This document shows, piece after piece, positions 50,580 through 64,000 of a DNA stretch of 64,000 nt; the stretch's first letter is position 1, and every line of letters starts with the position of its first letter. Location: positions 12,292,648-12,356,647 of the forward strand of contig CM073329.1 of NCBI GenBank assembly GCA_037043015.1. Reading direction: 5' to 3'. The notes beneath the pieces are model-generated. The model ran no database searches. It was not told the origin of the DNA and saw only the letters and a program-made list of their open reading frames with translations. The DNA comes from Bryum argenteum (lineage: Eukaryota; Streptophyta; Bryopsida; Bryales; Bryaceae). Made by a program: the position numbers and the translations under genes.

Positions 50580-52202
50580 ATGGAACAATCTAACACCCAA
50601 AGGAACCTCGTTTTTGATAGAATGGACATAGAGACACCTGTTGAGAGCCTTAAGAGAATCCACAATGAAAAGAACACCAAAGGTAAAAAGAAAAGAAGTA
50701 CTAATGAGCTCAATGCAAGCCCCTACTCTTCTAACCCAGAAGTGGAGGGATTTAAATTTTGGTTGGGATTCCATGTGATGGAGTCTTTGGCCAAAGAGGA
50801 GGGCTTGGAAGAGCTTCTATGGGAGGAGCCCATAAAAGATATGATTACAAGAGGCTTTCTTGAGAAAGAAGCAAAAGAAGCAAGATCGGCAAGAATGGCA
50901 TTTCCAAGAATCCCCCAATTGCTCTATCCAAGCACGTGGAGTGGGGGTGAAGGGCAACACTACAACATCACGCAAGTCCCCCAAGATGTCATCACCAACA
51001 TAAACACCGGTTTGTCATTTGATTTTCATATTGCAATTCATTTTGACCAACCTAGAACTCCTATATTATATGATCAAATAAAATACATGGTTCTAATGAG
51101 ACTCAAAGTTATGGACATTGCATTAGGGGAGGATCTCATTGAACCCCTCAACATTGTTTGTCTTAGTATTAAGCAAAGTGGAAGGAAAGGGGTGTGGGCC
51201 GGGATCATTAAACTACACCTACTAAAACCTGAAATAGATGGCATTGCATTGTTGAAGGGCTTAAGGCCCTTCATTCTTGTTCTTGATGAAATGCCAATGA
51301 TTGGGAAAGTATGTAAAAGCTTCCATAACATCTCTACTAACTCTAATCTAAGTGTGAAGATTAAGGGTGAGTCTTTGAAGGGATTGTTGGCGCCAAGTGT
51401 TTTCAAGGAAGTCCTTTGGAGTAGCTTCAAGAGAGGCCACATGTTGGAGATTACGGGAGTCCAAAAAGGCAAAGAGGAGAGCTTTGCCTTCTTGATGACA
51501 ACCACACCATTACAAGCTAAGAAGATAGAAGAATTTCAAGTGACATTGGGAAGCGAGATTGTTGAGACCAAGAGAGCTACTAGGGGAGAGAAGATGACGG
51601 AGGAGACAAAGGCAAAGAAGGATGCCTTGTCTCTCACACTCTCTCACCTTCCTATCCTCATGAAGGTAGAGGAGACAAAACAAGCCATTGAGAAGGTAAT
51701 GGGCATCGCCAATGTTGTTTCAATATGGTTTCACAAAGAGGATGGAACAAGGCACAATGGGAGTGCCAATGTGGAATGTTCCAACCCTATTGTCTGTAGA
51801 CAATTTGTGAATAAAACCCTCCAAATTGGAGGGTTTTTTGTGGAATTTGTTCCACATAGGAGAAGCTTGGAGGGGGTGGAGCCTCCAAGCTTGGAGCAAA
51901 TTAAAAGTTTTGGGTTCCAAGATGTGAATGTTGCAATGGTAAACACCATTGAAACATTCAAGATGCTTGAAACTCAACCACTAACTAAGAAGGAGATTGT
52001 TAGTCTCATGGAGGAGGTTGTGGAGGAGAGCAATAAGAAGATGAGAATGGAGACAAGGGAATTGGTGGAGGAGAAGCATGAGGAGTTGAAGCACCAAATT
52101 CAATCCATTCAAGAGACCCTCATGATGACCTTATCAAGTATTCAACACATCATGGGGAACAAATCCCCTCTTTTTATTGACAAATCAAAAAACGTGGATT
52201 GA
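50580..52202 (+). CDS. ORF1-like protein with RRM-like fold and coiled coil
   Basis: Intact 540-codon frame. Basic amino end (KGKKKRSTNELN), central region without recognised motifs, an RRM-like segment about residues 355-435 ('VSIWFHKEDGTRHNGSANVE', 'CRQFVNKTLQIGGFFVEFVP': beta-alpha-beta order), then a charged helical tail (~465-530, 'EESNKKMRMETRELVEEKHE'). This order resembles ORF1/gag-like proteins of plant non-LTR retrotransposons, which bind element RNA. A purine-rich composition differs sharply from the A/C-rich ORF2-like frames after 53,330, so it may not belong to the same element. The intact frame suggests recent activity. A host gene of unknown function is the alternative. Confidence 0.5.
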   Translation: MEQSNTQRNLVFDRMDIETPVESLKRIHNEKNTKGKKKRSTNELNASPYSSNPEVEGFKFWLGFHVMESLAKEEGLEELLWEEPIKDMITRGFLEKEAKEARSARMAFPRIPQLLYPSTWSGGEGQHYNITQVPQDVITNINTGLSFDFHIAIHFDQPRTPILYDQIKYMVLMRLKVMDIALGEDLIEPLNIVCLSIKQSGRKGVWAGIIKLHLLKPEIDGIALLKGLRPFILVLDEMPMIGKVCKSFHNISTNSNLSVKIKGESLKGLLAPSVFKEVLWSSFKRGHMLEITGVQKGKEESFAFLMTTTPLQAKKIEEFQVTLGSEIVETKRATRGEKMTEETKAKKDALSLTLSHLPILMKVEETKQAIEKVMGIANVVSIWFHKEDGTRHNGSANVECSNPIVCRQFVNKTLQIGGFFVEFVPHRRSLEGVEPPSLEQIKSFGFQDVNVAMVNTIETFKMLETQPLTKKEIVSLMEEVVEESNKKMRMETRELVEEKHEELKHQIQSIQETLMMTLSSIQHIMGNKSPLFIDKSKNVD

Positions 52203-52438: not shown

Positions 52439-53198
<760 letters not shown>

Positions 53199-53602
53199 AC
53201 ACATGAAAATAAAAATACATACACAATTATAAATACAAAATTTTTTGTCCTTGAACTTCTTGGAAACCCCAAGCTCATACTATGGCTACTAAGGAATCCC
53301 AAGTTTATACTTGGGCTACTTGGGGATAACACATTAAACAAAACAACAAGAACACAAATCTACACATTACACCAAAAACAAACCTATCTCCCCCACAAAC
53401 CAAACGGAGCTCGGCCTCCCGGCCTCGCCAAAACATTAATACACCAAAACACACCCTATCTCATAAATAATACAACAAAAACCAACCCAACAAAACAAGA
53501 TAAATACACCAAACAAAAGGAAAATTCTAAGATACACAAAACAAATTGGTCCCCCTCCCAAACACAATCAAAACCTAAAAATCCCAAAATGCCCAATCCT
53601 AA

Positions 53603-54076
53603 AACAAACACCATATTACATCTTGCGGACCAAAATCCAAAACTCCCAAAGGCAAATTCATCCCAAACTATTTATTTCTCCTACTCTGCGGTGACGTCGA
53701 ACCAAACCCAGGCCCCATGCCAAATATCCTACACACCCACCCCGCCAAGCATAGACGACACAACAACACATACTTCATTCCCAGCACAATCATATTGTAT
53801 CCAGAATACAAACCCCTCGCAAAAATATTCTCCTCCACAATCCAAACCACACACCCCGACCACCCAACAAGTATAAACAAATACCCATGTCTAACACGTT
53901 ACATACATAACCACCCCCAATACCCACCAACAAATTTTCTATACGCACTAATTACCACCATTGGTCCTCTATTAACAATGTGTGAACAACATATATTATC
54001 AAACCCATCTCCTGATTGGACTACATCATTACTCAACAAACTTTCCGTTTACCAAACATCCCCTCCCGTCACTTAA
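53603..54076 (+). CDS. LINE amino-terminal frame with 2A-like peptide
   Basis: The frame is open from the stop at 53,600-53,602 and reads through a hydrophobic stretch into LFLLLCGDVEPNPGP (53,672-53,716), followed directly by MPNILHTHPAKHRRH. D(V/I)ExNPGP is the 2A ribosome-skipping consensus, with the break between G and P. There is no ATG upstream in this frame; an ATG at 53,589 lies in another frame, so one indel may separate them. In the 2A-bearing LINEs of animals and trypanosomes the motif also sits near the amino end, often behind a hydrophobic stretch. The frame stops at 54,074, before the endonuclease, another sign of decay. Confidence 0.7.
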   Translation, partial: NKHHITSCGPKSKTPKGKFIPNYLFLLLCGDVEPNPGPMPNILHTHPAKHRRHNNTYFIPSTIILYPEYKPLAKIFSSTIQTTHPDHPTSINKYPCLTRYIHNHPQYPPTNFLYALITTIGPLLTMCEQHILSNPSPDWTTSLLNKLSVYQTSPPVT

Positions 54077-54961
54077 ATAATCCTCACCCCTACACTAAAT
54101 TTTTAGAAACACACCAACACAATATTACACCCTCTCGCACGATACACAAAGAATTATATAATTATATCACAAACATAAACAACAATGTAAATCTACAAAC
54201 ATTAATGGTTGAATTCCCATACATGCCAAAAGAACTACTAATCGAAGCCTTAAAATGTAAAAACACATTCCCCAGTACTCACACCCACCACCACTCCCGC
54301 CTACCCTCCCTCTTCAACCCCAACCCCAAATTACTACATACCAAAGCACACTTATGACTACCGGAATGCGACTTCACTCAATCTCCGCACTTCCCAACAT
54401 CCACCAGCTCGCGGATAACCTTCCCGCCATCATTACCATACAAGAAACAAAACTCACTGCAAATAAATCCACAAAACACATACAACGCATGCTACCACAA
54501 TATAAATTCATCTTGAACAATACACACGCCTTCACTAGATGTATACAACAAAGATTAAGATACACACCTACTAGAGGCGGCCTTCTCACCCTAATCCACT
54601 ACAAATATGCTTCCCCAGGAAATGTCACCAAGATCCCAACACCAGCAAACATCTCACCATATGTACAAATCATACATATTGCGAACAAACCTCTCATACA
54701 CTACAAGGATATATGTGACCTGATTGACAAAACACTGACGTAATTCGGTCAACTGTCCCGTCAATTAGGAGACCCTGATTCGGTCACTTATTAACAAAAA
54801 CATGTCGATTCGGCTGTCAAATCGGACAAGACTACACGTCAGCAAGTTCTTATGGTGAGAGGAAAAAAAAATACATTTTTTCCGCTGCCCGAATTTTTCG
54901 GGCAATAGTTACTTTCAAAAAGATCTCCAGCGATTCCAGGCCAGTTACTGCTGACGTCCCG

Positions 54962-55026
54962 CGCCTCGCCGGAATCGAACTCGGGACCCCGTACTTCCAA
55001 ACCACTAGCTTACCAACCCGCCCTCC
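54962..55026 (-). other. tRNA-like sequence in CACTA copy 2
   Basis: Minus strand: GGGCGGGTTGGTAAGCTAGT (A-box-like) .. GTCCCGAGTTCGATTCCGG (B-box GAGTTCGATTCC). Same position and strand within the element as the copy 1 sequence. Confidence 0.55.
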
Positions 55027-55567
55027 ATTCAACTCGATGAAAAGGAATTTGTTTCAACTATATAGTCTTGTTGTTTTCAAACTCAGCAGACTTTGGCGGC
55101 CATTTTGACATAGTAAAACAACTTTTTTCAAAAACCTTTAGACTAAGAAAAGCTGGTAAATCAAGTTATGTTTCATCTCCAAAAATCCTTTTGTCATTTA
55201 AAGCCTCCATTCAAAAGTTATAGACAAAATTCAAAGAGGGTGTTTGAAAATATCAAAAAAGAAAATTCCTTGCTACCCCTCTTTGAATTTTGTCTATAAC
55301 TTTTGATTGGAGGCTTTAAATGACAAACGAATTTTTGGAGATGAAACTTTACTAGGTTTACTAGCTTTTTTTATCCTAACAATTTTTGAAAAAAACTATT
55401 CTACTATGACAAAATTCTTGCTAAAGTCTGCTGATTTTTTTTAAATCCCTAAATGACCTTCACGCCCCCATGCGGCTTCTAGAAGTAGGAAGTGAGAAAA
55501 TTATGGTTCTTAGGCTGTGAATTATAGGATGACATGTAAATGTTGGGTATTTTTCAAGTTTTGTTAA

Positions 55568-56140
55568 CCCCAAACTGTCCGTGTGTGTTTTTGGGAGCTC
55601 AAAACCTTGAAACTACGATTTTCTACCTCTATGCATTCCCAAGGCTGTAAACCAAAGTTATTTCTTTTTTTGAAACTTCCAACCGTAAGATCTTGTACTT
55701 AAGACTATTTTTAGTTACTGTTCAAAAAATGAACCGTTGGATGTTTACCATTTGCGAGATCATAACATCCAAAATTTGTCTCCCAAGCTTTTTTGGGCAT
55801 TGTCAAGATTGGTTTGGAAACTTTGGAGGCTGCCCTTGTAAAATTGGTAAACTTTTTGACCAAGAGCCCTTAGGAACTTAAGTAGTACTTTGGTTATGAA
55901 CATAATTCCAATTCTTTTTTGAGAACCTAAATTTAAACTGCCCGATCTTGGCTCGCACATCGAGAATTGCCCTAGAATATTCAAAAATTGAAATTCCACT
56001 TTGCAAATTTTACCACACCCACTTTGCAGTATAAGGAGCGCCAAGTAAAAATATTAGACAGAAAATATTACCTTCAACACCTTTAACTAGGTTGCCCGAA
56101 ATTGCAAAAACCCATTTCGGGCTCCAAGGACGGTTAGGGG
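55568..56140. mobile_element. TTAA-flanked element nested in CACTA copy 2 (copy 4)
   Basis: 573 bp, termini CCCCAAACTGTCC / GGACGGTTAGGGG, flanked by TTAA (55,564-55,567; 56,141-56,144). No coding frame. Interior holds, on the minus strand, the ATGATCTCGCAAATGG .. CCAACGGTT .. AGATCTTACGGTT module shared with other elements. Confidence 0.65.
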
Positions 56141-57689
56141 TTAAGTGCCCCCATTTTAGCAATTCCACGCTGGTCAAAAATAAAAAAGTTGACAAGAAGT
56201 TGACAAGGAGTTGACAAAAACATTTATAATTTCCAAAGTGACAGAAGTTGGGCTGCAAGCCTGCGACTTCGTCATTTTGGACATTTTCTTGTCAACTATT
56301 GGTCATATCGGGCCCTATTTCCTTGTAGTGATACCATGGATTCTTATCCATCTCTACATGCCGTCCCATCCCGAAGATATAGGACTAATCCCCTCCATTC
56401 AGCAAACAATTACCACTCAAATACAAACACATCCAAATCACACCCATATTCTTTGTGGTGATTTTAACAGAGACATCGCACTCATAGGCAGACAAAATGA
56501 ACATACCACAACACCACCACAAGACGAAGACATTCAATGGCGCACCTTCACCGATAGTCTCAATCTAAAGTACATTCCTACAAACAGCCCATTCTCTAGA
56601 CAAGGCGGATACAACTATACAGAATCGAGCCTTATTGACGGTTACTACATAAATTCCACCAATCACCATCTTTTCACCTCGACTACCAACCACACACAAA
56701 ACCTTAACTCAGACCACTCACCAGTAAATCTTCACATACCTCAACAAACACTAATAGCCCGCCCTCCACCAATATCAATTAAAACAACCCCTCGTATTCT
56801 AAACCCCATCCCCCAAGCCAACTTAGACTCATTTAATACTGCATTCTTTGAACAAAACGCACTCTCTATTAACAACCTTACGACTATTTTAAAACAAGAA
56901 CAACTCACTCGCACTGAATGGACCACTGCATGTACACAATTAGACCTCCTCATAAACTGCACCACAGAAACATTGCTAAAAACTTGTACCGCCCCCCCTA
57001 TCCCCACTCTCACACCACAAACTAACCATCAGGGTGGATTTCTACCAAGAAAATCACAAAAAGACTGGAAGAGACACCTCTCTACATACCACTTAATTCG
57101 CAAAACAATCTACATAGCCAACAACAACGACACTTGGAGAACACACCCAATAATACAAGAAACACAACAACACACACATGCAAGCATACCACCCCCCCGG
57201 ACACAGATGACACTAAAAAAGATTGGCTAAACACACTAGCAGATTTAGCCAAAATCGCAAACAAAAAAACAAGGGCCATTACCACGAAATACACCCGCCA
57301 ATCCATCAAGAACGCCATAACAAAATATCGACAACTTTATAACACTAGCCCCAAGAAAATAAACAACCGTGTTTTCAAAAACCTAGAGACCCCACCACTA
57401 GATTGCATTACCACTCACAACAATGAAATCCTGACTAGCCCAGACGACATAGCCCAAGAAATCTTCTTGCAACAGTCCATCACCAACCGCCCAACCATCC
57501 CAACATGCTATTATCAACCAGAACATCCCCAAAACTGCACATGCGCAGTCCGCCAATACCCCTGGCATGGTTTAGATGGATTTATTCTTGAAAAGAGAGG
57601 TACTCCAGAAACTCCGTTACACACATACTACAATCGGGAAACTTTTGACATCTGCTTAAAAAATCTCTCACAAAACAAAGCTCCCGCCC

Positions 57690-59537
57690 AGATAAAATCC
57701 CTAACTCCATTCTCAAAAATATGCCTGACTCATTCCACACCCTTCTACACCTCTTCTTCTCCCAATGATATAAACAAAAACAAATACCTGCATCTTGGAA
57801 AACCAGCCTTACTATACTTCTTTACAAGAAAGGTGACCCCTCACTTCTCCCCAACCATAGACCCATTGCCCTCGCTAATACAATATACAAACTCTTTACT
57901 AGTACCCTTACATTCATTCTATCAGCATACGGCGAACGCCACCAAATCCTTCATGACAGTCAAGAAGGCTTTCGAGCTGAAAGAAGTACCTCTAGACAAA
58001 TCCAACTTCTTACGGCCACACTTGAAGATGCTAGAATCACAAACCAAGACATTTACATAATGTACATCGATTTCAAAAATGCATTTGGATCCTTAGACCA
58101 TGCTAGACTACTAGCAATAATGGCTGACCTGGGCTACCCAATAGATGCTGTTGCACTAATTGGAAACATTTACTCACATTCCACCACCATATACACTGGA
58201 GAACACTTTGGAAAAACGAAACCAATACCAATCCAACGGGGCACCATCCAAGGCGACACACTAAGCCCATATCTTTTTATCATATTCCTAGAACCCCTTT
58301 TGAGATGGCTACAACTAGGAAACCATGGTTACAAATTTGGTACATCAAAATCAATAATTAACTCTGCTGCATATGCTGATGACCTAGTTGCTCTCACTGA
58401 TACCCTTCAAGCGCTACAAACACAAATGAATAAAATTGAAAAATTCAGTGATTGGACTGGACTCGAAGTAGGTACACAAAAATGTGCAGTTACCGGCTGC
58501 CCAAACAAATCCAAACTCACACCCACCGCCTTCAAAACCCTTCTTCAAACACAAAACATCAACTACAAAAATGAACCATTACCAACACTACACCAAAATG
58601 AAGCCTACCCCTACCTCGGTATTCAAATGGTACCAACTCTCAAGTGGAAACTCCAAACACACATAACCACCAAAAAACTTACTGAACAATGTCAAAAACT
58701 CTCTAACTGCCCTGCCACAATGAAACAAAAAATCAATATGGTGGATACAGTCATACGCGCAGGCCTTGCATATAGCTTCTATGCAGTACCCTACTCACTA
58801 CCAATGATCAAAAAACTAGACAAGAAAATCACCAGCATCCAAAAAACAATATGTGGGCTTCCTAAATGTACGGCAAATGTTATTGCACAATTACCACATG
58901 AAGACTTTGGCCTTGAAGCTTTCTCTCTTAAAAATGCTTACCTCAAATGCATTGGAGACCAACTTACAAATGCACTAAATGACAAAGGTAAACTTGGCCC
59001 AATCTACCAAGGTCTCATTCAACACATTCTAGCAAAATATGGTGGATCCCAAGAAATCCCCCGAATAAAATACAACGATTGCATACATTCCCCAATCACA
59101 AGAACAATCTTCCTACTTAAAGAAGCCGGTGGACTACACCTCAAATGCACACTTGACAACTTCCAACTCCAAGCCACCGAATTAGAAACGCGATGGCTGA
59201 TCCAGGCATCAATTCTCCTACCCCACCTACATCCCAAAGTCTCCCTCAAATTATTACATAAACTACTACTTCTCAAAATAACCAAAATAAGCCACCTTAC
59301 ACTCCCAAATGGAACCACCCTCATGTCACCTATAGATTTCAAAATATACTATAAAAATCCCAGTAAATTAGAACGCAGCGCTCTCAATCTTGCTCAACAA
59401 CTATTTTGCCAAAAAATATGCACCCCCGAATGTTCACAACCGTGCAACTCACACTCACCATCCCATCTTCTATACAACGAATACATAACACATGACCACG
59501 AATTATCCCCACCTACTCCTCCACTTCCAACACATTT
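57690..59537 (+). pseudogene. LINE reverse transcriptase region
   Basis: From a frame change near 57,690 the frame gives the RT fingers and palm (HRPIALANTIYKLF, EGFRAERSTSRQ, YIDFKNAFGSLDH, QRGTIQGDTLSPYLF, AAYADDLVAL), then thumb and carboxy domain to 59,537. A TGA lies at about 57,767. The catalytic aspartates are intact. The true carboxy end is lost because the copia LTR starts inside the frame; the last residues before the stop at 59,593 are LTR-encoded. Confidence 0.85.
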
Positions 59538-59859
59538 TGTTGAGATACAACCTAGGCGACCCAGGAACTTTCTACCCCTAGGAATTAACTCCTAGTAACT
59601 TTCTACCCCTAGGAATTAACTCCTAGTAATTACCTTGGAATTAACTTCCACGGATAGTAAACGGGCAGTTTAGTTGTAGTTATTGGATAATAAAGGTGTG
59701 GTCGTTGTGTTATCATCAAGTTATCACTAGAGATAACTACTCTCTCTTTTACATATATATACTAGAGGAGAGCCTTGCCCTCCTCACTTCTTTGCTTTCA
59801 CCTCTCTCTCTTGCTTATTTCTTAAGCTTGCTTGCTTGCTTTCTCTTTTGGTCTTAACA
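59538..59859 (+). mobile_element. 5' LTR of a Ty1/copia element
   Basis: 322 bp, starts TGTTGAGA and ends TCTTAACA (TG..CA, short inverted repeats). It contains a 30-bp tandem duplication (AACTTTCTACCCCTAGGAAT.., 59,568-59,627), a TATA-like CATATATATACTAGAGGAGA (59,752) and a CT-rich leader. A primer-binding-site candidate GTTATCAGCAC follows at 59,861. The other LTR is outside the window. Confidence 0.75.
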
Positions 59860-60348
59860 CGTTATCAGCACATGCTTTGCTCTATTCCTTAGTTTTGCTT
59901 TCCTTGGTGGTTGTGGCTATTTTATCTTTCCTTTTAGCAGTGACACCTGAGAGAAGGATAGTTACTTACTCGTTTTATTTGTTTTATTTTTCTTTTGCTA
60001 CATGCACTGCTGCTGTTTTGTTACAACAGCCGCAGCCCTGCCGAACAATAGACACAACCTCATTTAGCCTATACTCTGTCGCCTGAAGATATTTTATTCC
60101 TCTCTGTTTGTTCTAGTTAATTCTTTCGTGTGGTTGCTGGGACCAGCTGTCTAGCCGGTGTCCGCAGAGCCACAGCCCCGGAGCAAGCTGCTGCTCCTCT
60201 ACCTCGCAGCAGACTGCCTGGTTTTCCCCGCTGCCCCTTGCAGCCGTTGTTGTCCCGCTCCTGCTCCCTGCAGGCCCACTTTCTGTTATTTTCTCCATTT
60301 TTCTTTCTTTGGCCATCTTTGTGGCAGGTGCTCAGCATTTGCACCAAC

Positions 60349-61725
60349 ATGACTACCGCACGTGAGTCTCGTACCCAAGCTCTGCTTTTTGACGCTCTCG
60401 CAGTAGACGGCAACAATTTTCTCGAATGGACAAACGACGTTCACACCTACCTCAGCGCGGAAGAACTTGAAGGTGCCTTGTACCGAGCTACGGCGGAGGG
60501 GATGCCAAACTCCAAGTGCCAACAAGCGTTGATGATCTTACGCCGTCACATGGAGACCTCACTACGCCAACAGTACCTGCAAATTTCGGACGCGGCGAGC
60601 CTGTGGTCTCAAATCCAAGCACGCTTCGAACATCACCAAGACTTGCTGCTTCCTCAAGCCCGGAGCGAATGGGTGAACCTTCGTGTTATGGACTTCCCTT
60701 CCATCCATGATTTCAACTCCGACCTCCACCGTTTATCTGCTCAACTCCGACTGTGTGGCGAACGCATCACCGACGCTGACCTCATCGACAAAACCTTATC
60801 TACTTTTCCACCTGCAACAGCTATTCTTGCCCAGCAGTATCGCAACATGCGCTTTACTACTCACTCTGAGCTCATGTCCAACTTGTTGATGGCAGAGAAG
60901 CAGCAGCTCTTGCTTGTGAAGAATGCAGAATCTCGGCCGGCGCGGGAGATCCATACGACCGAACCCATCACCACAACCTCCGCTACTCCAACTCCGCCAG
61001 CAGCTGCTCCGGTTTCCTCCACCACGCCAGCAACAAAAGCCGTAGAAGCCAACAATACCGAGGCCGCACGACGACCCCCACGCGGCGGCAGAGGACGTGG
61101 CCGAGGCCGGGACAACCGCTACTCAAGCAATCGCGACAACTACCATCGCGACAACCAGTACTCTGACTCCCGTGACGACCGACAGACTGACCGCCGTGAC
61201 GATCGCCGCGATTACCAACGGTATTACCAGGACCGTCGTGAGCCTTATGATCGTCACGATCGACCATCAGGTCAGTCTAGTCAATCTTCCCGTTCCGAGT
61301 CATCTAGAGGGGCTTGTCACAACTGTGGTCGTATAGGGCACTACGCGCGCGAGTGCCGCACCCCATGCTATTGGGTCGAAATTTTCCAGGAACTTCAAAA
61401 ACTGAAAGAGGGGAAGAGGGAAGTGCACTCCCTTGATGCACCCTCGTTCAATGAAGTAGATCCAGAAAATTTCATGGTCCTTTCCCCTGGACTTTCAATG
61501 CCATTAGACAAGGCACTCTTAGATAGCGGGTCCACTCATACAATACTTAGGAAACCCGAATTCTTTGATTCATCTTGTTTGTGCGGACCCTGGCAAGAGT
61601 GTGAAATACTCACCATTGCCGGAAGCCGGAACTTCAAGTTCCGGGAGGGCCGGGCAACGATAGTATTGCCCGGGGGATTCCCCCTCGTGTGTAGTAAGGC
61701 GATGTATGCGCTGGACGCCCCGTAG
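60349..61725 (+). CDS. Copia gag and protease region
   Basis: Gag frame from the ATG at 60,349. Order: capsid region ('FLEWTNDVHTYLSAEELEGA', residues ~24-43), RG- and RD-rich linker, zinc knuckle CHNCGRIGHYARECRTP (~330), protease LLDSGSTHTIL (~395; DSG active site). The frame ends at 61,725 inside the protease-to-integrase stretch, where a frame change follows. Encodes the particle protein and protease of the element. Confidence 0.85.
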   Translation: MTTARESRTQALLFDALAVDGNNFLEWTNDVHTYLSAEELEGALYRATAEGMPNSKCQQALMILRRHMETSLRQQYLQISDAASLWSQIQARFEHHQDLLLPQARSEWVNLRVMDFPSIHDFNSDLHRLSAQLRLCGERITDADLIDKTLSTFPPATAILAQQYRNMRFTTHSELMSNLLMAEKQQLLLVKNAESRPAREIHTTEPITTTSATPTPPAAAPVSSTTPATKAVEANNTEAARRPPRGGRGRGRGRDNRYSSNRDNYHRDNQYSDSRDDRQTDRRDDRRDYQRYYQDRREPYDRHDRPSGQSSQSSRSESSRGACHNCGRIGHYARECRTPCYWVEIFQELQKLKEGKREVHSLDAPSFNEVDPENFMVLSPGLSMPLDKALLDSGSTHTILRKPEFFDSSCLCGPWQECEILTIAGSRNFKFREGRATIVLPGGFPLVCSKAMYALDAP

Positions 61726-62682
61726 CTCCGATCGGCCACGGGATGTGCGCTCCAATGGGATCCACATTTCCACAAGTTTGGAAAATGATGATGAACACAT
61801 GGCACTACAAGTGGGCACTCAAACCATCACGAAGATTCTGCTGGACCTTCCGGATTGTATGAGATACGAATCTCTCCGACTACAGAGTCTGCGCTCCTAT
61901 CATACACAACGGCACTACCCAAGGCCCGGATATGGCATCGTCGATGGGGCACCCAAGACGACCCTTTCGCGCCGCATGATACCGGTCCTCACCGCCACAC
62001 TCTCAACCCCCTGATGATGCGGCCAAGGTCGATGATCGCACCGCATGTATACAAGGCAAGTACTCGAAGCACCCATCACGGTGGACGCTACCCACGGCCC
62101 GGCCTCACTTGGCTGGAACGATTACAAGGTGACATCTGCGGACCCATTAACCCCGTCTCAGGTCAGTTTGCCTACTTTCTTGTTCTAGTTGATGCCTCTG
62201 GAAGCCATGCAGAACTATCCCTCCTTAGCACCCGGAACATGGCATTCCCCAGACTCCTCGCGATGCTTATTAGATTTCGCAACCACTTCCCGGATAAGCC
62301 CATCAAGACACTTAGAATGGATAATGCCCAGGAGTTTAGATCCCATGCATTCGAAGACTATTGTACCGCCTCAGGGATTGATCTCACGTATTCTGCTCCT
62401 TACGAGCATTCCCAGAACGGATTAGCTGAAGCATACATTAAGAAAATCCAGTTGATCACCCGCCCCCTCCTGATCCATGCTAACCTCCCTGCATCTATGT
62501 GGAGTCATGCCGTTCTTCATGCTGCTAACCTTCTCCGATTCAGACCAACTTTGCTCAATACCCAAACATCTCTCGAACTAGTATCTGGCCGTGTACCAAA
62601 TATCCGTCATCTCCGTGTCTTTGGATGCAGTGCGGATACCGCACTGAACCTCGAATCCGCACCATTAGTGCCCATCGCCTAG
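61706..62682 (+). pseudogene. Copia integrase region
   Basis: After the frame break the integrase core is readable from about 62,100: LQGDICGPI (first D), TLRMDNAQEF (second D), EHSQNGLAEAYIKKI (E), then LRVFGC. The upstream HHCC finger is only partly preserved (WHRRWG). The frame stops at 62,682. Confidence 0.8.
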
Positions 62683-62689
62683 AAGGATT

Positions 62690-64000
62690 ATATGTAGGCT
62701 TCGATTCTCCCAAAGATCATCGGTACATAGACCCCAAAGAATGGCACCCTACACAAGGCCCGTTTTGAAAATTGCAGATTTATAGAGACGGTTTTTCCAA
62801 AACTTGATTTTCTCCGGTTTTGCTCCTCTCACCTTCCGTGCCGTCGAGTCTCTCTCCATGAACCCCGATCCACGCACGGCAATCGCCGAAATCAAGTTAA
62901 GAAACTTCTCCACCTACAAACCTTAGCTCAACAGATCCCGGATAGCTTCAAACTAGCCCTCGTATTCTTCGCAACCCAATCCCAGGATCCGGAAACCCAC
63001 CCCTTTCAAAAAGAGATTACCCCCAACCGAAACCCAGCCCACGACTAGCCAAGTCTCTCCGATCATCCAAGGAACCGGCGACTTCCGAATCTCAGTACAT
63101 GGAACCCGAATGTCTCATCTCCGACGTTTCAACCTTCGCCACCAAGCTTCTCAACCTTGATCATGAACCCACTACCCTTGACCAAGCCAAGGCCAGACCA
63201 GATTGGCCCGACTGGCAACATGCACTAACAGCGGAGTATGACTCTCTCCGCAAGCGTGGCGTCTTCGGCAAACTGCACACCAACTTATCACCCTGTCCCA
63301 TTGGATACAAGCTGGTTTTCACCCGCAAGAGGAATGAGCACGGCGAGATCGTTCGATACAAGGTCCGCTGCGTGGCACAAGGATTCAATCAGCACCTCGG
63401 AATTGATTATCATCAAACCTACTCCCCAGTGATGGATTGCTCTCCTGGTTATGCAATTCTTGCTGTTTACGTTGATGATATCAACATTATAGGGACAACA
63501 CCTGAATGCCATCATGTTGAGAACTTGCTAAGAAGCCAGTTTGAGATCAAATTGTTAGGCAAGACCACATATTGTTTAGGCGTGCAGATACAACACTTCC
63601 CAGATGGTAGCATCCTGCTCCACCAAGAATCCTACACCCGCAAGCTTCTTCAGAACTTGGGCATGGCCGATGCAAATCCGACCTCAGCACCAATGATCGG
63701 GCGGAGCAAGACTGGCGAGGATCCATACCGCCCGTGCGAGGAGGAGGAGGAAGAGGTGGATAAACCCAAGTACCTCTCTGCGGTCGGCGCGCTCTTGTAC
63801 CTCGCCACCCACACTCGCCCCGACATCTCATTTGCAACCAGCGTTTTGGCACGCCACAGCAAGAAGCCTACTCAACGACATTGGGCTGCCATCAAACATT
63901 TGCTAAGGTACCTTCGTGGCACAGAAGATTTGGGTTTGTACTTCACCAAAGCTGCAGATGCAAAGATAGTAGGATACGCCGACTCCGGGTTCCGGACGGA
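62690..64000 (+). pseudogene. Copia reverse transcriptase/RNase H region, deleted
   Basis: Pieces of copia pol: PDWPDWQHALTAEYDSLRK (63,205), YKVRCVAQGFNQHLGIDYHQ (63,360), TYSPVMD, then directly YAILAVYVDDINIIG (63,450). The central RT segment between SPVMD and YVDD (over 100 residues in intact elements) is missing, so the enzyme is dead. It continues into the connection (LSAVGALLYLATHTRPDISF, 63,775) and the start of RNase H (GYADSGFRT) at the window edge. Confidence 0.85.

Follow-up and report, generated by a model that had tools for sequence, protein, structure and literature searches.

We report here that two-ORF LINEs forming a large clade in what is probably a moss genome are likely, judging from sequence comparison, to carry a genuine 2A (StopGo) motif near the amino end of ORF2, where it would free a leader from the enzyme polyprotein. 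In these elements the motif lies in frame with the enzyme domains, is retained between families and precedes those domains in a defined order. One copy lies in the window, by which we mean the whole stretch of 64,000 nucleotides analysed (C9:12292648-12356647 of a genome of 258.8 Mb in 25 contigs). Positions 53672-53716 (+) of the window translate as LFLLLCGDVEPNPGP, and the codons directly after NPGP read M-P-N, as the original prediction had it when it recognised D(V/I)ExNPGP followed by Met-Pro at this place. The motif also agrees with the 2A/StopGo core, (D/G/C/N)(V/I)ExNPGP, as defined in the available text of PMC12846837, and it is the sole instance in the window, no second NPGP or DxExNPG being present in its six frames. 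In describing a LINE with a 2A, the original prediction was thus right about the motif and its frame, while it overlooked an upstream ORF1, two insertions and extra domains. The features of the window copy are as follows.

50580..52202, + strand: ORF1 of the LINE, 540 aa, open here and ending at its own stop; a similar protein occurs genome-wide
52450..53205 (ends approximate), + strand: TACACA/TACAAA-type microsatellite between ORF1 and ORF2
53603..53692, + strand: leader of the window copy, which has 30 codons and no Met between the preceding stop and the octapeptide
53672..53716, + strand: 2A-like motif LFLLLCG-DVEPNPGP, from translation, six-frame scan and family conservation
53693-53716, + strand: octapeptide of the 2A-like motif
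53717..54357, + strand: N-domain of ORF2 (unnamed, ~200 aa in relatives), interrupted here by a change of frame and by a stop codon at 54074-54076
54354..54698, + strand: first part of the AP-type endonuclease; relatives match Exo_endo_phos families and Exo III structures
54699..56330, + strand: presumed CACTA-type insert with termini CACTACAAGG.../...CCTTGTAGTG and ATA on either side
56331..57230, + strand: second part of the endonuclease and the region after it (Exo_endo_phos_2, E 7e-07)
57134..59537, + strand: linker and reverse transcriptase in several broken frames (RVT_1, E 4e-18)
59538..64000, + strand: Copia-type LTR retrotransposon inside the LINE (Pfam gag and CCHC)

The window copy is dead. 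A stop falls 119 codons past the motif, and the endonuclease is split by the 1.63-kb insert at 54699-56330, which we take from its termini to be a CACTA element and which is lacking in the related copy L065; alignment of the window copy to L065 picks up again at 56331, and the similarity ends at 59537. A Pfam search with the endonuclease piece at 54354..54698 alone returned no match, and in the Copia-type element the gag match reaches 25.6 bits, just short of its cut-off of 27, with the CCHC match above its own cut-off. The LINE seems to continue past the window, because a PCIF1 match lies beyond the window end at C9:12358072 (equivalent to position 65425).

2A-bearing LINEs form a large and diverse family in this genome. 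Exact D(V/I)ExNPGP codon matches number 167 (89 + 78, with positions given for the first 100 of the 167 sites), against a chance expectation of ~0.27 per genome and ~7e-5 per window under a rough first-order model derived from the window, and the reversed codon pattern used as a control gave 0 and 0 matches genome-wide. MPN or MPD follows the motif in 27 of the 30 fetched sites. In viral contigs the motif pattern had 0 matches, and 600 stretches found there with the reverse transcriptase profile confirmed no relative; a search of five loci against Rfam for an HDV-type ribozyme or other RNA likewise gave 0 matches up to E 0.5.

Key to our interpretation is the conservation of the motif in sets of elements picked by other means. 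The original prediction depended on the NPGP residues being conserved in related copies, and this is what was found. Among copies picked by DNA similarity to 53440-54680 (41 matches in the window's own genome, 30 fetched), the octapeptide is kept in 22 of 30 and lost in eight through single changes or a frameshift. A second set was picked by the N-domain, which is mostly 40-58% identical to the query (150 matches scored, counted on C1-C5 as far as the listed motif sites reach, with two C5 rows past that point left out), and the exact octapeptide stands in register in 71 of the 92 elements so counted, the other 21 lacking the exact in-register form; where the open frame measures at least 1,000 aa, the proportion is 20/23. 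Furthermore, a set was picked by the PCIF1-family domain (150 matches scored, 86 rows on C1-C5 typed, one past the motif list dropped), and an exact 2A was found upstream on the same strand within 12 kb for 52 of the 85 matches, 49 of these 52 sites standing 4.7-5.8 kb before the PCIF1 match, with 0 and 0 sites downstream or on the opposite strand within the same 12 kb. Among the nine plus-strand pairs with open frames of at least 1,000, five have the 2A and the PCIF1 match in a common frame, and over all 30 such pairs this holds for nine, from which it follows that most copies have decayed.

The six codons before the octapeptide, which were part of no search key, are under purifying selection. 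Their pN/pS is 0.37 over 53 distinct elements (pS 0.72, pN 0.27), and five groups give 0.06, 0.11, 0.20, 0.24 and 0.00 (n=28 for the window family, picked by DNA, then 4, 5, 3 and 3, picked by the motif); the 13 codons after the octapeptide give 0.33 over the 53 elements. The value of 0.10 for the octapeptide itself over the 53 elements is biased, the set having been defined by the motif, and its values of 0.00-0.06 in the four smaller groups prove nothing, since the motif was the search key there. In the group of 28 it stands at 0.98: among the young copies of the window family it drifts freely, as does the remainder of these decaying sequences, and the case for selection on the octapeptide therefore rests on its retention between families (71/92). 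Codons -6 to +7 taken together give 0.26, 0.05, 0.11, 0.14 and 0.00 in the five groups, values that are low relative to those further upstream (0.54-0.88 for codons -25 to -7 and 0.29-1.10 for codons -110 to -26, with L029 and L030 outside the range), and amino-acid constraint therefore starts before the Met that follows NPGP.

Frame and domain order are seen together in L071 (C2:19700800-19710000, minus strand), a relative in which a single frame of 2,613 codons extends between two stops and has its 2A at codon 270, flanked on both sides by coding sequence. A motif out of frame with the endonuclease, which by the original prediction's own account would have told against it, is thus not what this open-frame relative has. 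The order in L071 is 2A, AP endonuclease, reverse transcriptase, PCIF1-family domain, RNase H and CCHC end, and its parts match L065-L072 in order; Pfam searches with pieces of L065, L066 and L071 returned Exo_endo_phos, RVT_1, PCIF1_WW and RNase_H. Compared with known structures, the L071 reverse transcriptase matches R2 (E 7.5e-35) and human L1 ORF2p (~4e-18), and the endonuclease profile matches Exo III (9e-05). The element therefore has an AP endonuclease and then a reverse transcriptase in the order of an APE-type LINE. Its C-terminal end reads CPIC...H...C, RHN, KPDLLCVIG, IEFTYC, KY, and by eye this CCHC and KPD...E-T end resembles an R2-type restriction-like domain, a search for which gave no match to a Pfam profile or PDB structure sequence.

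The PCIF1-family domain, which sits between the reverse transcriptase and RNase H (e.g. L066, L071, L072), matches PF12237 in all seven members searched (best E 1.3e-16), and the profile built from it matches PCIF1 structures at E 0.0011. Searching with PF12237 gave 150 scored matches in this genome and none in 14 control genomes. The catalytic motif of PCIF1 is NPPF, and at its expected place in the protein all seven members read GIGYAH(P/T)(H/Y), so that none has the signature of an active PCIF1 methyltransferase. A chromodomain, suggested by the look of the sequence before the PCIF1 domain, was dropped when Pfam gave no match there up to E 5.

A separate ORF1 upstream of the 2A-led ORF2 is part of the LINE. 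Proteins like the window ORF1 account for 83 rows in the genome, at 93-98% in the window subfamily and down to ~33% elsewhere, and for 49 of the 83 one of the 150 N-domain matches follows on the same strand at a distance of up to 6 kb, while 0 and 0 have one upstream or on the opposite strand; the gaps measure 0.8-3.2 kb. No Pfam family matched the 540-aa protein above its cut-off. The microsatellite lies in the spacer between ORF1 and ORF2; it is present in 27 of 28 copies (L001-L028, the exception being L016) and consists of units of 6-nt type, A/C-rich in the element's sense, which range from a few, as in L023-L025, to more than 1,000 nt. Its reading as the 5' end or the target of the element was dropped in view of the ORF1 upstream of it.

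The leaders are of two types, an L-type (PNYLFLLLCG) and a K-type (KYHLTKCG, HHLLKCG), and G precedes D in 50 of the 53 elements. The upstream context of the L-type, with LLLCG before D and often S at p15, fits the L-rich class, for which the available text of PMC12846837 gives (A/S/C)G directly ahead of D and a preference for S at p15, and of which motif 6 has been tested there. The K-type agrees with the described context only in CG before D, and its hexamer KYHLTKCG falls outside the upstream classes described in that available text, which speaks against a 2A. In most L-type leaders the best 10-residue hydrophobicity mean is ~1.5-2.5, the stretch lying behind a basic part, and in 11 of 33 distinct upstream stretches it is 0.33 or lower, mostly below 0, with the 2A still kept. 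An in-frame Met lies between the upstream stop (or locus edge) and the motif in 43 of 53 elements and is absent in the other ten; some leaders are open over hundreds of codons.

If the motif acts as a 2A, ribosomes on ORF2 would pause at NPG|P and release the leader, which in many L-type elements would measure ~37-50 residues, if translation begins at a Met located 30-43 codons ahead of the octapeptide, and would continue into an ORF2p starting Pro-Met-Pro-Asn. In this way the 2A may serve to give the enzyme polyprotein a clean and constant amino end wherever translation began. Such an amino-end normaliser seems the likeliest use, given that the 2A persists from family to family next to a leader and a microsatellite spacer that are both highly variable. 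In addition, the loss of part of the ribosomes at the 2A would lower the output of ORF2p relative to ORF1p. In L012, L018 and L019 a degenerate 2A (KCDDIETNLGPMPNIL, NLGP) stands ~35 residues before an intact ALLLLCGDIE-NPGP, which looks like the replacement of an old leader, and turnover of this kind, with a spoiled 2A ahead of a good one, would fit an amino-end normaliser. Exact 2A pairs 723-727 nt apart occur at four loci among the matches listed, namely L067 (C2:30585954, 30586680), where both sites lie within one 585-codon frame, C3:18760953/18761679, C5:7223685/7224408 and C5:14694873/14695600.

A 2A has to be weighed against the idea that the Met directly behind NPGP is the start of ORF2 and that the motif is untranslated, being kept as an element of the DNA or RNA. 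This Met is present in 51 of 53 elements, although a skipped product would have no need of it; the ten elements with no in-frame Met between stop and motif, together with the ratio near one for the octapeptide in the window family, also count for a start at this Met and against a 2A, as do against the latter the octapeptides lost within that family and the 21 elements that lack the exact in-register form. However, the start context of the Met is poor in all 51 of 51 cases (C at -3 and +4), the six codons upstream of the octapeptide vary synonymously and little otherwise, as their ratios of 0.00-0.24 in the five groups attest, and different families retain the octapeptide while encoding it with different codons, all of which makes such a start unlikely. 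A chance resemblance, for which the shortness of the octapeptide might be cited, is wholly improbable in view of the 167 sites, the empty reversed control and the retention of the octapeptide while its flanks diverged.

Two further explanations would grant the motif a role in translation but assign it another one. The original prediction had raised an alternative signal sequence of the kind found in sea urchin NLR proteins, where the uncut product would enter the secretory path and the cut product remain in the cytosol. The hydrophobic stretch behind the basic part of most L-type leaders would suit this, and the dual use is published for SpNLR2A according to the available text of PMC4981915; but a hydrophobic core fit for a signal peptide does not run throughout the moss family, a third of whose distinct upstream stretches (11/33) lack it and keep the 2A regardless, and a LINE enzyme should need to reach the nucleus. 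Because the second, K-type lineage has no hydrophobic stretch, a general role of this kind is very unlikely; the idea fails across the family and could hold for the L-types at most. Alternatively, ORF1 and ORF2 could form one polyprotein parted by the 2A, like a viral capsid and replicase. At C7:2211333-2215217 the ORF1 and N-domain matches do share a frame, each being recorded with an open frame of 1,643 aa that spans the 2A position, and the leaders open for hundreds of codons point the same way; open frames are cheap, however, because the strand is T-poor, the window ORF1 ends at its own stop, and in the 49 pairs of ORF1 and N-domain the relative frames 0/1/2 are mixed (20/9/20). We consider a single ORF1-2A-ORF2 polyprotein improbable and have rejected it on account of these frames. 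A genuine 2A near the amino end of ORF2 remains the reading that we favour.

A 2A placed likewise, close to the amino terminus of an APE-type LINE and in frame with the enzymes, is reportedly found in L1Tc and other trypanosome LINEs, which differ from the moss LINEs in host kingdom and in which we know of no PCIF1-like or restriction-like domain. In animal APE-type LINEs the enzyme ORF is said to begin with an L-rich stretch followed by (C/S)GD(I/V)ExNPGP, a layout shared with the moss elements in a different host. The 2A is also said to have accompanied the loss of ORF1 in LINEs, whereas the moss LINEs keep an ORF1 upstream of it. Compared with Dualen/RandI, a group defined in part by a reverse transcriptase branch between R2-type and APE-type LINEs, the moss LINEs have in addition a 2A, a separate ORF1 and a PCIF1-family domain, none of which is known to us from Dualen. 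The last of these shares its family (PF12237) with PCIF1, from which it differs in being part of a LINE and in the replacement of the catalytic NPPF.

The occurrence of 2A in LINEs of trypanosomes and a range of other species is documented in the available text of PMC4981915 and PMC11512398, and 2A functions in plant cells according to that of PMC4981915. The available text of PMC12846837 (2026) likewise has StopGo working in plants, and reports that no evidence was found for its use by plant viruses. With the L-rich StopGo motifs 2/6 of RNA viruses described there, the moss motif shares (A/S/C)G before p12 = D and the favoured S at p15, and differs in residing in a retrotransposon and in having P at p15 in the window copy and mostly T in the K-types. 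The combination of APE, restriction-like endonuclease and RNase H is given for Dualen/RandI LINEs in the available text of PMC4640811 and PMC3636483, so that an element uniting both endonucleases with RNase H would be of this kind; the moss LINEs have the same APE, reverse transcriptase and RNase H, along with the CCHC and KPD...E-T end read by eye and a reverse transcriptase nearest to R2 structures.

It is conceivable, and we propose it tentatively, that the moss LINEs provide the first case of StopGo being used naturally by a land plant, in elements that would combine ORF1 and a 2A-led ORF2 with two endonucleases, with RNase H and with a captured domain of cap-methyltransferase type, and in which a normaliser may tolerate microsatellite growth and leader exchange, with two 2As per frame in some subfamilies. 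The titles and abstract openings of the papers listed in literature searches showed no plant LINE with a 2A and no LINE with PCIF1. A natural plant set of 2A sequences with intact and broken variants would offer a view of 2A evolution inside a cellular genome, and would be a possible source of plant-adapted 2A sequences for multigene expression. Furthermore, the moss LINEs would allow a test of the idea that the 2As of LINEs replace a lost ORF1, because both are present here, and the PCIF1-type domain raises a separate question about the handling of RNA by such elements.

The land-plant host that the original prediction had supposed is supported by the presence of LEAFY, SAM_LFY matches being found at 5 places in this genome and in none of the 14 control genomes. 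The best match reads ...KPKMRDYVHCYALH...GAWCQACYYPLV..., and Asp at 312 with Cys at 345 are, from work on LFY specificity, moss marks of LEAFY, so that the host is probably a moss. The four extra SAM_LFY matches above the cut-off (L032, L033, L034 and C3:17027128) are not ordinary LEAFY, and the three of these loci that were fetched, L032, L033 and L034, adjoin frames that by eye resemble BED-type zinc fingers.
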